From contig NZ_SJPF01000003.1 of the NCBI RefSeq assembly GCF_007859755.1, positions 124,001-188,000 of the forward strand: a stretch of DNA of 64,000 bases, read 5' to 3'. Origin of the DNA: Blastopirellula retiformator (GTDB taxonomy: Bacteria > Planctomycetota > Planctomycetia > Pirellulales > Pirellulaceae). This document shows, in pieces, positions 15,938 to 23,534 of the stretch. The position numbers and the translations under genes were made by a program. Each line of letters starts with the position of its first letter. The stretch's first letter is position 1. The notes beneath the pieces were generated by a model. That model was given only the letters and a program-made list of their open reading frames with translations, searched no databases and had not been told where the DNA came from.

Positions 15938-16645
15938 TTAGCCTTCGACCGAGTAGAACTCTTCGTACGGTTGAATGACGACGAAACCGTTGCCGCGGAA
16001 TTCCATCTGGAAAGACTCGCCGCTGCCGCGACCGAAGAAGGTCTTCAGCGAAACGTCGGTTCGCAGGCTCGGTTCCAGCGAACCGCTCCACGCGACCGTG
16101 GCGTTCGGATCGGTGTAGACCGGGCAATCAGGCGTGACGACCAGCGTCAGCGGTTCGTAGTGGGTGGTGATGGCGACCATGCCGGTGCCGCGCAGATGGA
16201 CCTGAAACAGTCCGCCGGCGAGCATCGACGATACCCGCTTCATCATCTTGATGTCCCAGTCGACCGACTCCTCAAAGGCGAGGATGTCGTTGCCGTTGAC
16301 GACGATCGCTTCGTTCTCCAGTTTGAGGATCTGGACCTTCTTGCCGTAGTCGGCCAGGTAGAGCCTCCCCTGCCCGACCGCCTTGGTCAGACGGGCGCCT
16401 TCGCCGGTGACCGCCTTTTTGAAGAAGCCGCCGAGACCCTTCTCGAAGACCCCTTCTCGCTCAAACTTGATGTTGCCGAGGTACGAAACCATCGAGCCCA
16501 TCTTGGTCCAGACCATCCCGTTCAGGTTGACCTCAAGCAGGCGTTGGCTCTCCATCTCGAAGATCCCTTGCCCACGATCACGCTGGCGGGTTTGTTCCAC
16601 AAATTCGCGGAGCGTGTAGCGGTTATCGACTTCAGCAGAGCTCAT
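15938..16645 (-). CDS. AIM24-family protein
   Basis: 235 residues, all-beta, with glycine-rich strands typical of the AIM24/TIGR00266 family: MVWTKMGSMVSYLGNIKFER near the N-terminus, a central LYLADYGKKVQIL, AITTHYEPLTLVV, then SGESFQMEFRGNGFVVIQPY at the end. Bacterial members are soluble proteins of unsettled function; the mitochondrial relative is needed for membrane organisation. It lies between an ECF sigma gene and a zinc-finger-like gene on the same strand. Confidence 0.88.
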   Translation of the reverse strand: MSSAEVDNRYTLREFVEQTRQRDRGQGIFEMESQRLLEVNLNGMVWTKMGSMVSYLGNIKFEREGVFEKGLGGFFKKAVTGEGARLTKAVGQGRLYLADYGKKVQILKLENEAIVVNGNDILAFEESVDWDIKMMKRVSSMLAGGLFQVHLRGTGMVAITTHYEPLTLVVTPDCPVYTDPNATVAWSGSLEPSLRTDVSLKTFFGRGSGESFQMEFRGNGFVVIQPYEEFYSVEG

Positions 16646-16764: not shown

Positions 16765-17412
16765 TTAATTGGCTGCGTAAAGTTCTGGGAAGATCTCCTC
16801 GTTCAGGCCCTGCTTCCGCACGGCGGCCCGCAACTTCGCCAGAAAATCAAACTTGTAATTGGCGACGTTTTGTTCGGTCAGGTCCAAAAGCTCAGCGACG
16901 TCTTTGTTGGCGTAGCCGCGGACCAGCAGCATCTCTAGGCACTGGACCTTCACCCAGTCGCCGCGGCCGCGCCAATGATCGAGCTGGCCATTGATCGCTT
17001 CGACCAGGGCCGCTTCTTCCAGGTCGCGGCGCTCGCCGCTACGGACGATGCTGGACGCGGCCCGCTGCGTGCCGGGCAGTTCCCAGTTGTCGCTGGAGCC
17101 ATCGCCGCCCGAGTGGATCGGCAAAGTGGGACGTCGCCCTTCGCGGCGGAGGTGATCGGTCAGCTTGTAGGCGCAGATCGCGAACAGGTAGCTCTCCAGC
17201 GAGCGCTTGCCGTCGTAATTGGGCAGGCTGTTGAGAAAGCCGATGAACGTCTCTTGGACGACGTCTTCGCTGGGCGCGCGACGACGCAGGCGACTCTCGG
17301 CAAATGCGAGCAGGCGACCTTCGTAACGGCCAATCAAATCGGTCCAGGCGTCAGCGTCGCCGGTTCGAATCCGATCGATCAGCAGCACGTCGGTTTCAGA
17401 AACCTCAGACAT
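16765..17412 (-). CDS. ECF-type RNA polymerase sigma factor in the kinase locus
   Basis: 215 residues from ATG 17412 (MSEVSETDVLLIDRIRTGDA); ATG 17421 is an alternative three codons earlier. Region 2 spans about 10-80 (RLRRRAPSEDVVQETFIGFL); region 4 spans about 150-205, with RGYANKDVAELLDLTEQNVA as the helix-turn-helix. A linker of about 55 residues between them is longer than usual. Co-directional with an upstream Ser/Thr kinase and FHA protein; planctomycetes are known to have ECF groups linked to Ser/Thr kinases, so phospho-regulation is plausible but unproven. Confidence 0.88.
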   Translation of the reverse strand: MSEVSETDVLLIDRIRTGDADAWTDLIGRYEGRLLAFAESRLRRRAPSEDVVQETFIGFLNSLPNYDGKRSLESYLFAICAYKLTDHLRREGRRPTLPIHSGGDGSSDNWELPGTQRAASSIVRSGERRDLEEAALVEAINGQLDHWRGRGDWVKVQCLEMLLVRGYANKDVAELLDLTEQNVANYKFDFLAKLRAAVRKQGLNEEIFPELYAAN

Positions 17413-17487
17413 AAGCGGCATTTTGGGCGGATAGAGGAGCAGCCGCGTCCGTCATTGCAGCCGCCCTGCAGGCATTCGCTGCGCCGA

Positions 17488-18549
17488 CTAGACCGGCGGG
17501 AACCATTGCGTCAGCAGGATCGCCCCACCGACTACCCCTAGTATCGCCGCCCCGGCGATCGTCTGCAACCTTCCCTGGTGACGCCGATCGGTCGCCGCAT
17601 TGTAAGAAAGGGCGCTGTAAAGAATGCCGAGAACCGCCAGAACGCCGGCAAACAGGCCGCCAGCGTAGCCCAGACGGGTCGACTGCTGCACCTGACGCCA
17701 TCGCTGCTCAATTTCGCGGCGGAACTGGTCGTTGAACTGCAGATGGGCGTGCCACTGCTGCATCGGGCCGACGGTCGTGTCGAGTTGCTCTTTGTAGGTC
17801 TGCAGATGAATGTGGTCGGCGATCAGTTGGTCGTCGAGCGGAATGCGGCTGGCGCGGGCCTCGCTGCCAAGCAACTGGGCCGTCTGTTCCAGGACCGCCT
17901 CTTCGGTCAAAGCTTGGAGCGCTTTGTAGCACTCGGTCGAACTGCTGTAGGGGCCGGTCGAAAGCGAGACGTAATCGACGCCATCTTGCGAAGTAGGCTC
18001 TTGGTCGACCCAGTCGGGGCGCCCCGGCGGGATAATCCGCGAGGCGCCAGCATTTTCGGCCGTGTTGACTGTCGGCTGCACAAACGCGTCATACAGCGCG
18101 CTGCCGACCGCATTGACGATGGTCGCTTGCGACGCCGGGTTCGCTGGAGGACTTGCTGGATCGGGCAAAGTTGGCTGTTCGGAGGTTTCGGCCCGCAGTT
18201 CAATCGGCGGGGCCGTGGCGAGCTGCCGTGTCGTCGTACGCTCGACTCGCATGGACGACCGGGTCCGATAAGGGCTGTTATTCTCGGTCTGTACATCTAC
18301 CCGAACCGCAACCAGGCTCAGCAGCCCCAGCCCAATGGTTCCCAAGACGCCGCAAACCAGCAGCCCGGCCAAGATCTTCCAGCGGCCGAAAATGATGGTC
18401 AGCAAGACCGCCAAGAAGCCACAGGCCGCAATCGCCAGCAACAAAACGATCGCCGGCGACATCGCCACAGACTGGGTGGTGGCTGAAATCGGTTCGGCGA
18501 TCTGCCCCAAGCAGGCGACAGACTGAGCGAGTTGTAGTGCCGGCAACAT
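17488..18549 (-). CDS. Membrane protein with helix pairs at both ends, function unknown
   Basis: 353 residues from ATG 18549 (MLPALQLAQ); a GTG at 18585 is possible. Two helices near the N-terminus (IVLLLAIAACGFLAVLLTII and ILAGLLVCGVLGTIGLGLL), a soluble Pro/Thr/Ala-rich and then helical region (about 80-290), and two C-terminal helices (LFAGVLAVLGILYSAL, AGAAILGVVGGAILL). This would give a large loop on one side of the membrane. It follows three microprotein genes and the kinase on the same strand and precedes the ECF sigma gene, so it may be the membrane part of that system. Confidence 0.75.
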   Translation of the reverse strand: MLPALQLAQSVACLGQIAEPISATTQSVAMSPAIVLLLAIAACGFLAVLLTIIFGRWKILAGLLVCGVLGTIGLGLLSLVAVRVDVQTENNSPYRTRSSMRVERTTTRQLATAPPIELRAETSEQPTLPDPASPPANPASQATIVNAVGSALYDAFVQPTVNTAENAGASRIIPPGRPDWVDQEPTSQDGVDYVSLSTGPYSSSTECYKALQALTEEAVLEQTAQLLGSEARASRIPLDDQLIADHIHLQTYKEQLDTTVGPMQQWHAHLQFNDQFRREIEQRWRQVQQSTRLGYAGGLFAGVLAVLGILYSALSYNAATDRRHQGRLQTIAGAAILGVVGGAILLTQWFPPV

Positions 18550-18633
18550 GATCAATTCCAGGGAACAGTACTGCGTCTCTACCACAGATTCGTCGCTCAG
18601 AGGCGAATCTTGGCGGCGTGCGCAGCGAAATTC

Positions 18634-18717
18634 TTATTTTTTGGTGCGTTGTCGAAAAGCGAAAGCGCCCAGCGCAATGACGCCTCCGACAATGACGATC
18701 TCTTGAATGCCTAACAT
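18634..18717 (-). CDS. 27-residue single-helix membrane microprotein (microprotein 1)
   Basis: ATG 18717 to TAA 18634. It begins MLGIQEIVIVGGVIALGAF and ends with a basic tail (RQRTKK). One transmembrane helix with an acidic residue near its start (Glu6). Below normal gene-calling cut-offs. Supported by position: same strand and close spacing with two other microproteins (13 nt after microprotein 2), between the kinase and the four-helix membrane protein. A short N-terminus with Glu before a hydrophobic helix recalls TatA, but the Phe-Gly hinge and amphipathic helix are absent. Confidence 0.6.
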   Translation of the reverse strand: MLGIQEIVIVGGVIALGAFAFRQRTKK

Positions 18718-18730
18718 GATGACTCTCGAG

Positions 18731-18847
18731 TTACTTTTTTGAATTCTTTTGTGCGACAACGATGGTCGCCACAACGCCGACGGTCACAATCAGCGGACAG
18801 ACGACCAGCATCCCGATGATAACAAGCTCTAAAACGCCGATGCCCAT
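18731..18847 (-). CDS. 38-residue single-helix membrane microprotein (microprotein 2)
   Basis: ATG 18847 to TAA 18731. Starts MGIGVLELVIIGMLVVCPLI and ends in VVAQKNSKK. It is one long hydrophobic segment with Glu7 near the start and a Lys-rich end, the same plan as microprotein 1. TTAGG lies about 11 nt before the ATG. Too short for usual annotation. Its presence in a tight row of three similar frames argues against chance. Confidence 0.6.
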   Translation of the reverse strand: MGIGVLELVIIGMLVVCPLIVTVGVVATIVVAQKNSKK

Positions 18848-18877
18848 GATGCTGCCTAAGATAATTCCGTGTCCCGT

Positions 18878-18976
18878 TTATTGGCCTCGTCGCGACACCG
18901 CCGCGATGATGACGATGGCGATAATTGCAATGACGGCCAATAGGCCGCCAACGCCGAGTAGTAACATAGTGCTCAT
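18878..18976 (-). CDS. 32-residue single-helix membrane microprotein (microprotein 3)
   Basis: ATG 18976 to TAA 18878, 45 nt after the kinase stop. Starts MSTMLLLGVGGLLAVIAIIA and ends AAVSRRGQ. One strongly hydrophobic helix followed by a basic tail; ATG 18967 is an alternative start. It is the first of three such frames; together they fill almost all of the 472 nt between the kinase and the next large gene. Confidence 0.55.
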   Translation of the reverse strand: MSTMLLLGVGGLLAVIAIIAIVIIAAVSRRGQ

Positions 18977-19021
18977 GGACCAATCAGGGGAAGCTGCCAT
19001 TAGAAACTTATTTCGTCACAA

Positions 19022-21055
19022 TTAGGCGGAGGCGGAAGTTTCGGTCATCGCTTGTTGCTCGTGCCGCAGCGCCTCACGTTCTTTGGGGCTGTACCAAGGC
19101 GCCGAGATCTGAACTACCAGCGAGATCGCCCCGCTCAAGATCAGGCCCCACGGTTGAATGAACGGCGTGAAGTAGTTGACCAGTGCGGCGGTCATGACCG
19201 TCACAAACAACGTCCACAGACTCAGCCGCGTCTTGCGGAGCGGATCGCTCAGTTTCCACCAGCGAAGCAAGCCGAACTGGGCGCCAAAGACGATCGCATA
19301 GGTCGTCAGCGACGGGGAGCCGTCGAGCGACTCAAACCAACCGCGTAGTCCCAGGTTCGGGCGCCAACCAGTGACCGTTCCTTCTACCGGCAACGGCATG
19401 TCCAGCAGCAGCGCTTGTCCCGCCGCATAGCCGATCAAGCCGATCACCAAGCCGATGCCAGCCATCGCGAACCGGCGAAGCCAAGGATCTCCTTCGTTTC
19501 GTTCCCACAACTTGCCGACCAGCAAGATGCTCCACGACCCACAGATCGTCATCGCCGTCAGCCAGCCAAACAGCGGCGCCCAGGTCGCCAGCGGGCCCTC
19601 GACGGAGACGCCCCCCAAAGCGAGCGCCAAGATCGAGATCACCGCCGCTGAGATCGCGCTGATCAGGAACGAGCCGACCAGGCTCTTCATTCGCAGGTCG
19701 AGCGGGATCGCGGCGAGCGCCTCACGTTGTCGCTCTCGACGGCTCAGCTTTTGCGTCCGCTTTTCCTTGGCTCGCTCTTTCCGCGTCATGACGACCGGAT
19801 GGTACGGCGAGTACTCGGTCACCGTATTGCGAGTCGGCGTATCGTTCATATGCAGAAAGATCGAGCGACCTGCCAGGTAAACCATATAGACGGCGCCTGC
19901 CAACAAGCCGAGCGGCAGCAGCCAACCTAGATTGGCGATCAGCGCGAACGAGCAGAGGACCAGCACCAGGAGCTTTGGCGCCAGGCTGACGTTCTCGTTG
20001 TTCCACCAGTCGGCGACCGAACGCATGCCGCCGGATACCGCTTTGGCGACCGGCTCCTCGTCGCCGCCGTTGAGCGGCGCGACGATCGGCTCTTCGGGCG
20101 ATTGCGGCGCAGTCGCTCCATTCGCCCGCTGGATCGTGACGTCATCATGCAGCGAAGCGACGACCGTTTCGTTCTTCGAGAGGCCGAGATTGGCCAGCAT
20201 CTCTTCGACCGTGCCGGTCCGCTTGTTCGGGTCTTTGTGCAGCGCCTGGGTGATCGTTGTGCGGAACGGCTCCGGCACGCCACGCAGGTCGGGCTCGGCG
20301 GTCAAGTGCTTCATGATGATCTCTTGGCTGCTTTCCCCTTCAAAGGGAACGCGGCCGGTCAGAATCTCATGCAGCATGATGCCTAGAGCGTATATGTCGA
20401 TCTCTTTGCCGTAGACTCCTTTGCCGATCTCGGGCGCCATGTAATGGAACGTGCCGACGCTTTCGGTTTGTCCGCTACGGCGGCTGACCGAGATAAACTT
20501 CGACAGGCCGTAGTCGCCGATCTTGATCGTGCCGGCGTCATTAAAGATGTTGCCCGGCTTCAGATCGCGGTGGACGATGCCATGATCGTGCAGATAGCCG
20601 ACCGCCGCGGCGATCGGACGGAACCAGCGAATCGTTTCTTCCGGCGAAAGTCCGCTGGGGCGACGATCGAGCGTCTCCTTCAGGTTTTCGCCCCGTACGT
20701 ATTCCATCACGACCCAGCCTTCGCCGGCGTCGTCAAACTTGATGTCGTACAGCGCCACCAGGTGCGGGTGCTTCAGGTTCAAGCAATGCTTGACCCCCCG
20801 CATCTCGATATCGAGGTTGCGTTGAATATGTTTGAGAGCGACTTCCTTGCCGGCGTCGGTCAGCGCATAGAAGACTTCGCCGAAGCCCCCGGCGCCGACG
20901 CCTCGTTTGATGGTGAAGCCGTCGAGCGGCTTCGACCCACTGGCATAGGTAAATTTCATCGTTCCCCCTCGCGGGCGATGATCGGCCTGAGAAGGAAGCT
21001 GGGCGGTGTTTCCCTGCTCCTCTTCCGGCTCTATCGTCGCTGCGTCGTCGCGCAT
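19022..21055 (-). CDS. Membrane-bound Ser/Thr protein kinase
   Basis: 677 residues from ATG 21055. Kinase domain at about 45-320: P-loop RGVGAGGFGEVF, catalytic Lys75 in EVALKHI, HRDLKPGN with Asp164, DYG (instead of DFG) at 181, and APE in YMAPEIGKG. A short linker is followed by a membrane part: two or three helices near 360-400, a basic loop (KERAKEKRTQKLSRRER) and about five more helices to the end. The catalytic residues are complete, so it is probably active. An FHA-domain gene lies upstream and three microprotein genes downstream on the same strand. Confidence 0.93.
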   Translation of the reverse strand: MRDDAATIEPEEEQGNTAQLPSQADHRPRGGTMKFTYASGSKPLDGFTIKRGVGAGGFGEVFYALTDAGKEVALKHIQRNLDIEMRGVKHCLNLKHPHLVALYDIKFDDAGEGWVVMEYVRGENLKETLDRRPSGLSPEETIRWFRPIAAAVGYLHDHGIVHRDLKPGNIFNDAGTIKIGDYGLSKFISVSRRSGQTESVGTFHYMAPEIGKGVYGKEIDIYALGIMLHEILTGRVPFEGESSQEIIMKHLTAEPDLRGVPEPFRTTITQALHKDPNKRTGTVEEMLANLGLSKNETVVASLHDDVTIQRANGATAPQSPEEPIVAPLNGGDEEPVAKAVSGGMRSVADWWNNENVSLAPKLLVLVLCSFALIANLGWLLPLGLLAGAVYMVYLAGRSIFLHMNDTPTRNTVTEYSPYHPVVMTRKERAKEKRTQKLSRRERQREALAAIPLDLRMKSLVGSFLISAISAAVISILALALGGVSVEGPLATWAPLFGWLTAMTICGSWSILLVGKLWERNEGDPWLRRFAMAGIGLVIGLIGYAAGQALLLDMPLPVEGTVTGWRPNLGLRGWFESLDGSPSLTTYAIVFGAQFGLLRWWKLSDPLRKTRLSLWTLFVTVMTAALVNYFTPFIQPWGLILSGAISLVVQISAPWYSPKEREALRHEQQAMTETSASA

Positions 21056-21117
21056 CGAATGTGTCCCCCGCAATTCGGCCGTCACAGACGTTCCCCAACG
21101 TCTTGCCGCGCTCTCGG

Positions 21118-21747
21118 TCAGGCACTAGCGGCCAACCGTTCCAGATAAAACGAAAAGTCTTCTCCCTGGACCGAGCAGTCGGCGACGAGCGGCGATTTGT
21201 TCTTCACCGCTTGGCCGTTGACTTGAAATGCGCCGGGAGAGCGGACATGCAGTCCGTCTCCCTGCTTGTACAATACCACATCCCGATTCCAGCCGCCGCA
21301 AACCACATGGTTGCAGCTTTTGGGGCCCAGGATGCAGGTTTCGGCCATCAGCAAAATTGCGTCGGCCGCTGGTTCGGTACGCTGCGAGCTTTCGAGTCGC
21401 AGCACGGCGCTGGCGCTCAGCGGATGCCGTTTCTGAAAACTGAGGACGACGCTGCGTCCCAACTGAATCAGGTCTCCATCCGATAAGACGGTTGGCTGGT
21501 CCAACAGTTTTCCGCGGCGGCGCACTTCGGCCAGCGGTTCGACTACATACTCCGCTCCGCGGCGGCGGATCCAAGCGTGCCGCCGGCTGACGTCGCCCAA
21601 AATCGGCACGTCGACTCCACTTTGCGGCGTCGCCTGGCCGATCAAGACGTCGGGACCGGTCAGCAGCAGGAAACCGCCGACTCCATCGACCCACAACTGG
21701 CGCCGCGTGGGCGCTTCAGCCAATGGTTTCGTCGATGATCGCTTCAT
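21118..21747 (-). CDS. FHA-domain protein
   Basis: 209 residues from ATG 21747 (MKRSSTKPL); the frame is open to ATG 21891, which would add 48 residues. An FHA-like fold begins at QLWVDGVGGFLLLTG; DVSRRHAWIRRRGAEYVVEP matches the SxxH strand-loop that contacts phosphothreonine, and SDGDLIQLG the following turn. A second, weaker repeat of the same kind may follow (CNHVVCGGWNRDVVLYKQ). FHA proteins bind phosphothreonine, so it is a natural reader or substrate for the adjacent Ser/Thr kinase. Confidence 0.8.
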   Translation of the reverse strand: MKRSSTKPLAEAPTRRQLWVDGVGGFLLLTGPDVLIGQATPQSGVDVPILGDVSRRHAWIRRRGAEYVVEPLAEVRRRGKLLDQPTVLSDGDLIQLGRSVVLSFQKRHPLSASAVLRLESSQRTEPAADAILLMAETCILGPKSCNHVVCGGWNRDVVLYKQGDGLHVRSPGAFQVNGQAVKNKSPLVADCSVQGEDFSFYLERLAASA

Positions 21748-22113
21748 GACCTGTTCTCGTGCTGTCTTGGCGCCGACCTGCGTTTCGAGGACGGCCGAGG
21801 CGTAAGAGACCGCGCCAGTGCTGAGCCAGACTTGATCGGGACGCGTTTTTCGCGAGTCCGAGTCAGGCGAGTTGTGGCGGTTTCGTCTCATTACTACTTT
21901 AGTTCGTTGGTAAGCCCCGGAACACGCGTCTTTGCCGTCGATTTCAGTCGCCGGCGACCCGTTTTCGCTGTGCCCAGATATTGCTGGGCCCGAGGATGCG
22001 ACGTAGCGAAGAAGGCTTTCGCCCCCTTCGCCACGCGCTCACATCCAATCTGCTATTCGTTGGCGGCGGGCAATTATTGCGACGCCGCCGGAACAATCGT
22101 TATCAAATGCCAG
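21748..22113. other. Gap between the FHA gene and the coiled-coil gene
   Basis: 366 nt if the FHA protein starts at 21747, or 222 nt if it starts at 21891. No separate gene, repeat or terminator was recognised. It may carry the promoter of the FHA-kinase run. Confidence 0.5.
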
Positions 22114-22962
22114 CTAGTTCAGGCTCGGTTCGAGCGATTTCTTGCTGGTCAGCTCGATCGTCGGCACCCGCTGGTCGACCACGATTTCTGCGGAATTGCC
22201 ATCCGAGAAGTAGGCGGCGACTTCGTCCGAGACGTCCTTGACTTCGACTTCGTCCAGCTGGATCTCTTCGCCGAAGTAGCCTTCCGAGGAGACGAGCTTC
22301 TCGGCAACTTCGATTCGCGTCGAGATATCTTCCAGCAGCTTCTCGGTGCGCGACAGTTGGCTGTCGTCAAACTTGAAGGCGCTGGTCGTCTGGGCGACTT
22401 CGACCATCTTCAGGCGAGCCTGGAGATTCTCGACGTCGACTTCCAGCTGACGCTTGGCGACCAACATGCCGTCGAGCTTCGCCCGGGCGGCGTCCAGTCC
22501 CTTCTGGCGAGCGCGGAGGATTCCTTCCAGCTTTTCGCGTGTCGCGTCCTGCGTCTTGAACCGCTCGAAACGGCCGGCCAAATCAGCCTTCACCTGATCG
22601 CGGGTATAGCGATGGCTGGCGTATTGATAGGTCTGCGAGCCGTCATCCAGGTCGGCTTTCAGACGCAACACTTCTCGTTTGTCCTGGGCCAGGCTGTCGT
22701 TCAGCTTGTCGACCTGACGTTGCAGCTTGTCGACGTCGACCTCTTCCTTGGCGATCAGATGCATGTTGCTGCGAATTTCCGGAGTCAGATCATTGATCAT
22801 CCGGTGGGCTCGTTCGAGTTCAAACTCGATCGGCACGTTTTGTTTCACTTGGTCGTGGAGACGACCATATCCGGTGGCGACATAGCTGACGGCGTCGCGA
22901 CCAAATAGTAGACCGAGCGCCAGCGCGGAACCGGCGCCCACAAGAATCAACTTCTTAAACAT
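22114..22962 (-). CDS. Membrane-anchored coiled-coil protein
   Basis: 282 residues from ATG 22962, with GGGAGGG about 8 nt upstream. An N-terminal helix (LILVGAGSALALGLLFG) anchors it. Residues about 50-215 are a long coiled coil with heptad patterns (EVDVDKLQRQVDKLNDSL, EKLEGILRARQKGLDAAR). An acidic C-terminal tail follows. It could act as a spacer or scaffold in the envelope, perhaps similar in principle to PspA-type proteins, but no family was recognised. It is the first gene of the minus-strand run that continues with FHA and kinase genes. Confidence 0.78.
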   Translation of the reverse strand: MFKKLILVGAGSALALGLLFGRDAVSYVATGYGRLHDQVKQNVPIEFELERAHRMINDLTPEIRSNMHLIAKEEVDVDKLQRQVDKLNDSLAQDKREVLRLKADLDDGSQTYQYASHRYTRDQVKADLAGRFERFKTQDATREKLEGILRARQKGLDAARAKLDGMLVAKRQLEVDVENLQARLKMVEVAQTTSAFKFDDSQLSRTEKLLEDISTRIEVAEKLVSSEGYFGEEIQLDEVEVKDVSDEVAAYFSDGNSAEIVVDQRVPTIELTSKKSLEPSLN

Positions 22963-23534
22963 CGAAAAACCCTCCCAGTGACTGCGTAGCTGCCGGCAGT
23001 GATTGTGCCAACATGCATTGTTCGTGGTTTCGCTCATTCCCTGCCTCCGGAACAGAAACGTCCTGACATAAGGAAGTCTTCGCAGCACTTGAGGCGATAT
23101 TGGGAAATTCTCGCCGCCAGCGGAAAAAAATTTGCGGCCGCAGATCGGACCGCCAGGATGGGGGAATCGCTTTTAGACGAGACTCCCCCAGAAGCAAGAA
23201 TAATCGGATTGACCGGCCCGGTTTGCCAAAACAGGGCGAAATTGGCCGTAGAACGATCTCTTAGGCTCTGAAGACGCCGCAAAGCGCGGCGGTCGATGTT
23301 GACCAAAATGGCACATTGTTGTCTTTTGGGCACACTCGCTACGAACGGTACTCAGGTGCAAGACGTAGTCAGAAAAGCAGAAGTGCTTACCATTTCCTAG
23401 GTTGCGGCCCAAAAAACGCCAAATACGGGAAATACCCGCGAACATGGCGCACCGGTTGCATTGTCCTGAAATGTGCTCGCACAGCGATCAAGAATCAGCA
23501 CCAAATTGCGAATAACTTCTCAGGAGCCAACGCC
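22963..23534. other. Long intergenic region between divergent genes
   Basis: 572 nt between the coiled-coil gene (minus) and the 66-residue gene (plus). The sequence is richer in A+T than its surroundings and shows no open frame with good codon use and no clear repeat. Promoters for both genes must lie here. Confidence 0.5.

Follow-up and report, generated by a model that had tools for sequence, protein, structure and literature searches.

Small membrane microprotein genes between a Ser/Thr kinase gene and a membrane protein gene in Blastopirellula retiformator: candidate accessory subunits of a kinase complex

The sensor kinase PhoQ is regulated by two small membrane proteins, MgrB and SafA. 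They are not known to lie in a row inside the operon of that kinase. Small membrane regulators of kinases are already known as a kind, MgrB being a membrane protein of 47 residues with an inhibitory effect on a membrane kinase (PMC8404706, PMC10576120). KdpF is presented as a 30-residue membrane peptide co-transcribed with a complex that it supposedly stabilises (PMC3618439). The locus analyzed here lies in a window of 64,000 nt (the whole stretch of DNA that was analyzed) of the Blastopirellula retiformator genome. It resembles the MgrB and SafA cases, by description only, in associating a small membrane protein with a membrane kinase; it differs in that the kinase there is a histidine kinase, whereas here a Ser/Thr kinase is accompanied by one to six microgenes. 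Two of them, M1 and M2, appear from their hydropathy and the selection on them to be small, single-span, coding and selected, as in the MgrB-like class. The likeness to KdpF would be that of a small membrane peptide co-transcribed with its complex; in contrast, KdpF belongs to a potassium pump, and no KdpF model was listed for M1- or M2-type peptides in Pfam and NCBIfam scans.

The junction between the kinase and P0002 genes

The small frames occupy the minus-strand gap between the kinase gene (19022-21085) and the gene of a membrane protein, P0002 (17488-18549). The features of the region are as follows.

15938..16645, minus strand: AIM24-family protein (Pfam AIM24, E 3.5e-39)
16765..17421, minus strand: ECF-type sigma factor (Pfam Sigma70_r2 and Sigma70_ECF above cut-offs)
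17488..18549, minus strand: P0002, membrane protein, hydrophobic helices near either terminus (start 18549 picked by comparison)
18550..18633, minus strand: P0002 leader, conserved non-coding (column identity among genus members)
18634..18717, minus strand: M3 frame, 27 aa (begins MLGIQEIVIVGG; a doubtful gene, or an M2-type copy that was shortened)
18731..18847, minus strand: M2 microprotein gene, 38 aa (begins MGIGVLELVIIG; single helix; KNSKK tail)
18878..19000, minus strand: M1 microprotein gene, 40 aa (begins MAASPDWSM; single hydrophobic helix; SRRGQ tail)
19022..21085, minus strand: Ser/Thr protein kinase with a C-terminal membrane part (Pfam Pkinase, E 1.8e-49; GTG start uncertain)
21118..21891, minus strand: FHA-domain protein (Pfam FHA 26.1 bits, cut-off 20.7)
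22114..23088, minus strand: protein with an N-terminal hydrophobic helix and, by our own reading, a coiled-coil look (no Pfam family above cut-off)

An earlier note on this DNA had placed three frames in the gap, of 27 aa (18634-18717), 38 aa (18731-18847) and 32 aa (from the ATG at 18976, ending at 18878), with spacings of 45, 30 and 13 nt, and these positions and distances were confirmed. The frame of 32 residues does exist from its internal ATG; however, the ATG at 19000, which gives 40 codons, is the more likely start of M1 on sequence comparison, because the longer N-terminus is present in all four members of the genus, with Met1, Trp7 and Met9 invariant in 4/4. The gap between M1 with this start and the kinase stop is 21 nt. 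The note had also ascribed one common plan to the three frames and an early Glu to two of them. M2 and M3 do share a Gly-x-x-Glu start and M1 lacks an early Glu, so that two kinds of peptide are present; the common plan was not retained, as M1 is of another type and longer than had been stated and M3 is not clearly conserved.

The row had been considered unlikely by chance. By a rule requiring an ATG start, 25-75 codons and a hydropathy of at least 2.3, the junction stretch holds two small frames in a row, M1 and M2, and two such frames were found in 0/2000 dinucleotide shuffles and in 0/1252 other, overlapping stretches of the window. M3 falls below the rule (the best mean hydropathy over 17 residues is 3.28 for M1, 2.86 for M2 and 2.02 for M3), and the claim thus stands for M1 and M2 but not for M3.

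The kinase was found in 56/60 genomes (E<=1e-60) and P0002 matches in 48/60, the own genome included in both counts; P0002 has four hydrophobic segments by hydropathy in 13/13 homologues. The 55 other genomes with the kinase yielded 52 loci (G055, G056 and G032 were left out, the kinase and P0002 lying on separate contigs in the first two), and these and the own locus, as 53 stretches of about 8-13 kb, were searched by tblastn at 1e-3. The coiled-coil protein was present in 50 loci, the FHA protein in 52, the kinase in 53, P0002 in 41 and the ECF sigma factor in 43; AIM24 was found within 7/53 of these stretches. The operon formed by the coiled-coil, FHA, kinase, P0002 and ECF genes is order-wide and mostly without microprotein frames. 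Outside the genus of the window (g1) and G022, the first frame of at least 150 codons lies within 100 nt of the kinase stop in 44/48 loci, the distance being taken from the earliest possible start and the frames being not all P0002 but in some cases the sigma factor. Hydrophobic small frames were present in 4 of the same 48 loci: the one in G044 has 49 codons and a different plan, and those in G019, G053 and G014 overlap the long frame.

On the coding strand, no terminator-like site was found from the kinase gene to P0002, and a promoter scan found none, the promoter type sought being one that may not suit this phylum. The P0002 leader (18550-18633) is the best-conserved non-coding part of the junction across the four genus members, with 81/85 columns identical between G001 and G003 and 66/88 between the own genome and G002; a 28-base segment within it has no second copy in the genome at up to 3 mismatches. 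A structured RNA in the leader was dropped as a candidate (z-scores between -2.95 and 1.80 in 13 genomes, with no consistent fold), and a structure model of P0002 from a three-row alignment had a mean pLDDT of 46 and was not used for a fold search. A GGGGTCAGGTCCC stretch precedes M1 in G001 and G003 (palindromic in G003) and is lacking in the window and G002; it lies at about 6059-6173 of L063 and on the other strand in L065, and looks like a repeat element.

Distribution of, and selection on, the small frames

An M1-type gene lies between the kinase and P0002 genes in 14/14 genomes examined, from three genera: 4/4 of the genus of the window, 9/9 of a second genus, g62, and G022 (genus g20). 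The g62 genomes (G084-G092) each carry one such gene of 35-38 codons behind the kinase; G090, counted in the 9/9, stands outside the codon test (8/9) and the kinase tree. Among 61 kinases in a midpoint-rooted tree, the 13 carriers included form one clade with a support of 1.0, which fits a single gain at the junction. A profile of 13 M1-type peptides, from which the sixth frame of G022 was excluded, matched 23/241 genomes of the family (E up to 0.01); among the 22 new loci (L218-L239), tblastn located this kinase at the g62 and G022 loci and at no others. Depending on the genome, the locus holds 1 to 6 such frames. G000-G003 all have M1 and M2, and a third frame occurs only in the window and in G002; the six frames of G022 comprise two of M2 type, three mutually similar ones of M1 type and the sixth.

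Conservation had been named in the earlier note as a check on the three frames: M1 and M2, the latter with a Gly-x-x-Glu-Leu start, are kept in 4/4 genus members, whereas M3 has no clear orthologue. For M1, dN/dS is 0.17-0.33 over the 6 genus pairs, and differences are in excess at third positions (P = 0.006-0.03 for five pairs, 0.15 for the remaining one). Between the own genome and G002, 84/123 columns of M1 are identical and the spacers drift (12/31 and 10/28 columns identical). In g62, dN/dS of the M1-type gene is 0.05-0.49 in the 22/28 pairs with a finite dS, and all of the pairs together, though not independent of one another, show 308, 210 and 549 differences at codon positions one, two and three. 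For M2, dN/dS is 0.07 for G001-G003, the other 5 pairs giving no ratio as dS is saturated; the third-position excess has P = 2e-5 for G001-G003 and P = 0.03 for the own genome and G002, where 74/131 columns are identical and 22 are gap columns. By these measures, M1 and M2 have the behaviour of real protein-coding microgenes that purifying selection maintains. The third frame of G002 is of M2 type, with 39 aa and a GTG start, and G001 and G003 are without one; M3 and the G002 frame share 62/123 identical columns, with 42 gap columns. M3 is matched by the M2 profile, which was itself built with M3 included, and is either a doubtful gene or a shortened copy of an M2-type gene.

M1 was also compared with the membrane helices encoded around it. 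The M1 profile gave a median of 14.4 bits on P0002 helix 1 (only 5.6 in G002), against medians of 1.0-4.2 on P0002 helices 2-4 and 0.2-4.2 on kinase helices, with single values up to 9.6; the helices came from the same genomes, G022 being missing on the P0002 side. This signal is mostly one of composition, helix 1 scoring a mean of 13.5 bits and shuffled cores 8.4. At most 4/200 shuffles reach the real helix 1 score in 6/13 sequences and 16 to 65 do so in the other 7, and the reversed helix 1 outscores the real one in 3/13. That M1 is a proven duplicate of helix 1 was rejected, as the pairwise scores within the genus were reached by 367 to 1168 of 2000 shuffles. Two G022 frames gave weak matches to Blastopirellula P0002 with their N-termini, the score being reached by 602, 62, 146 and 47 of 2000 shuffles for m4 and by 1157, 67, 557 and 76 for m5. 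In an earlier control, 31 P0002 N-termini outscored a set of 89-90 other helices at N-termini (P 2e-11 and 3e-10); it did not separate composition and was flawed, with at least one P0002, that of L093, among the controls and the high-scoring L129 and L138 coming from M2-search loci. Combined, the comparisons suggest, and do not prove, a common origin or a common partner for M1 and P0002 helix 1.

M2-type frames elsewhere in the Pirellulales

The M2 profile matched 25/241 genomes of the family (E up to 0.01). A wider profile matched 39/396 genomes of the order (1e-3) and 6/392 genomes phylum-wide (1e-4), all six from the window's own family, a count in which distant members may be missed because the phylum search was stricter. 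As found here, the M2 microprotein family would be confined to the Pirellulales. Part of the matches fall inside longer frames, and the clear ones have 36-45 residues and a G-x-x-E start. When 18 loci were taken more widely, a kinase-like match was present in 3 of them; the M2-type frames lie mostly away from this kinase. In g62, an M2-type frame lies behind a gene ending ELFRIPMLDGKK (G091, G089, G084 and G087; L158, L163, L171 and L181), which is sulfatase-like, a putative sulfatase judging from its start. Other M2-type frames adjoin a gene with a WLxKTEP-like start, presumably an EVE domain, in G063, G098 and G103 (L124/L147, L204 and L182), and an M1-type frame is also found at L124/L147 and L204. 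At L127, L128, L135, L169 and L184 the M2-type helix precedes a tail that is rich in cysteine, has CxxC pairs and, in our own reading, resembles a zinc ribbon.

M1-type and M2-type frames are neighbours in G063, G064, G098 and G225; in G225 the two lie together about 610 nt behind a different Ser/Thr kinase, and in G050 an M1-like frame comes before an M2-like one. A hydrophobic small frame was found near the M2-motif frame in 5/25 cases (two in G022) compared to 130/4000 random intervals. Because the M1 profile used was seeded with paired cases, only new cases count for pairing, of which G064 and G098 are paired and G229 and G109 unpaired.

Eight M2/M3-type and 13 M1-type peptides were scanned against Pfam and NCBIfam. 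Where cut-offs were compared, no match above them was obtained for 8/8 M2/M3-type peptides in Pfam or for 11/13 M1-type peptides in NCBIfam, the best scores being 17.9 of 23.2 bits (DUF3149) and 17.8 of 40 bits (NF038396). For most of the other scans, the best E-values were 0.069 (M2-type in NCBIfam) and 0.051 (M1-type in Pfam), and the M2 profile had nothing better than E 0.26 in the PDB. The locus also points to a microprotein family without an above-cut-off match in the scanned family libraries. An FG hinge and an amphipathic helix after a short membrane helix are the marks of TatA/TatB/TatE. M2 shares the single span with these proteins, and its start MGIGVLELVI is in register with MGLGVNELLI of the own TatA-like protein (L187); however, read against the own TatA, M2 has neither the FG hinge nor the amphipathic helix. 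PF02416 had 7 matches in the genome (E<=10), none of them at the place of M2 (C3:142734-142847), and was above cut-off for two own genes on contig C2. In the open-access literature searched, we found no publication on planctomycete microproteins and no report of a variable row of small membrane regulators beside a Ser/Thr kinase.

A possible role with the kinase-P0002 complex

The earlier note had proposed small regulators or subunits of the kinase/membrane complex. The frames kept at the junction appear coding and selected, the kinase and P0002 genes co-occur over the order and M1 is kept at their junction, and a role with the membrane complex is therefore the natural reading; the partner would be the kinase-P0002 complex, judging from the place in the operon and the likeness to P0002 helix 1. 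We thus regard M1 and M2, and perhaps M3, as candidate single-span accessory subunits of this complex, with a probability of about 0.5. M1 and M2 would be produced from the operon of the membrane-bound Ser/Thr kinase and its partner P0002, following a single gain at the junction after which the number of frames would have varied from 1 to 6. By the positive-inside rule, the helix would sit in the membrane and leave the basic C-terminal tail on the cytoplasmic side. It may then pack against membrane helices of P0002, of the kinase or of both, as P0002 helix 1 might, and this packing could determine how the kinase assembles or at what threshold it signals; a buried Glu near the amino end of M2 would serve helix-helix contact. 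In related bacteria the operon of this kinase carries none, one, two, three or six small membrane frames, which constitutes a natural experiment in which the contribution of a membrane microprotein to a bacterial Ser/Thr kinase is testable.

The microproteins might alternatively be general membrane microproteins whose function is a separate one and whose sole link to the kinase operon is shared transcription. M2-type frames occur at many other places, such as behind the sulfatase-like gene in g62, as this would predict, but M1 stays at the junction in a clade of three genera and resembles P0002 helix 1, and we consider it unlikely. Rather unlikely, too, is a bolder form of the subunit reading, in which the microproteins would be detached, separately encoded copies of P0002 helix 1 that arose once at the 5' end of P0002 and then multiplied, serving as interchangeable plug-ins whose number (1 to 6) tunes the Ser/Thr-kinase/ECF-sigma complex, with the Glu-bearing M2 type coming from the wider Pirellulales microprotein family.

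If translation rather than the product mattered, the small genes would be leader frames that couple or tune the translation of P0002. This improbable reading would suit the short spacers and the conserved P0002 leader downstream in the genus of the window; however, the amino-acid sequence is selected while frame number and spacing vary, and most relatives do without such frames. Decidedly improbable is that the operon has taken in membrane-active peptides resembling the toxins of type I toxin-antitoxin loci: the size, the single helix and the basic tail, the several similar frames in a row in G022 and the joint occurrence of M2-type and M1-type frames at other sites would agree with it, whereas the M1-type genes are kept at one junction in 14/14 genomes examined of the clade. 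Chance frames are very improbable, for although M3 alone could be one, the selection on M1 and M2, their third-position bias and the shuffle tests contradict it.

By analogy with known pairs, the kinase may signal to the ECF factor. ECF43 and similar groups have a kinase gene nearby, and phosphorylation activates them in a region where neutral residues replace an acidic motif (PMC8103513). The sigma factor P0005 keeps Glu-Asp in what we read as the presumed ECF43-type region, and the exact ECF43 mechanism is therefore not indicated.

The P0002 homologues of G482 and G521, which lie behind the same kinase, start in an M2-like manner and score 34.3 and 28.7 bits, values that are selected because both loci came from the M2 search itself. 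In G521, the P0002 homologue (L173, 556-1617, minus strand) seemingly has two successive helix-basic-helix units at its start, as if doubled.
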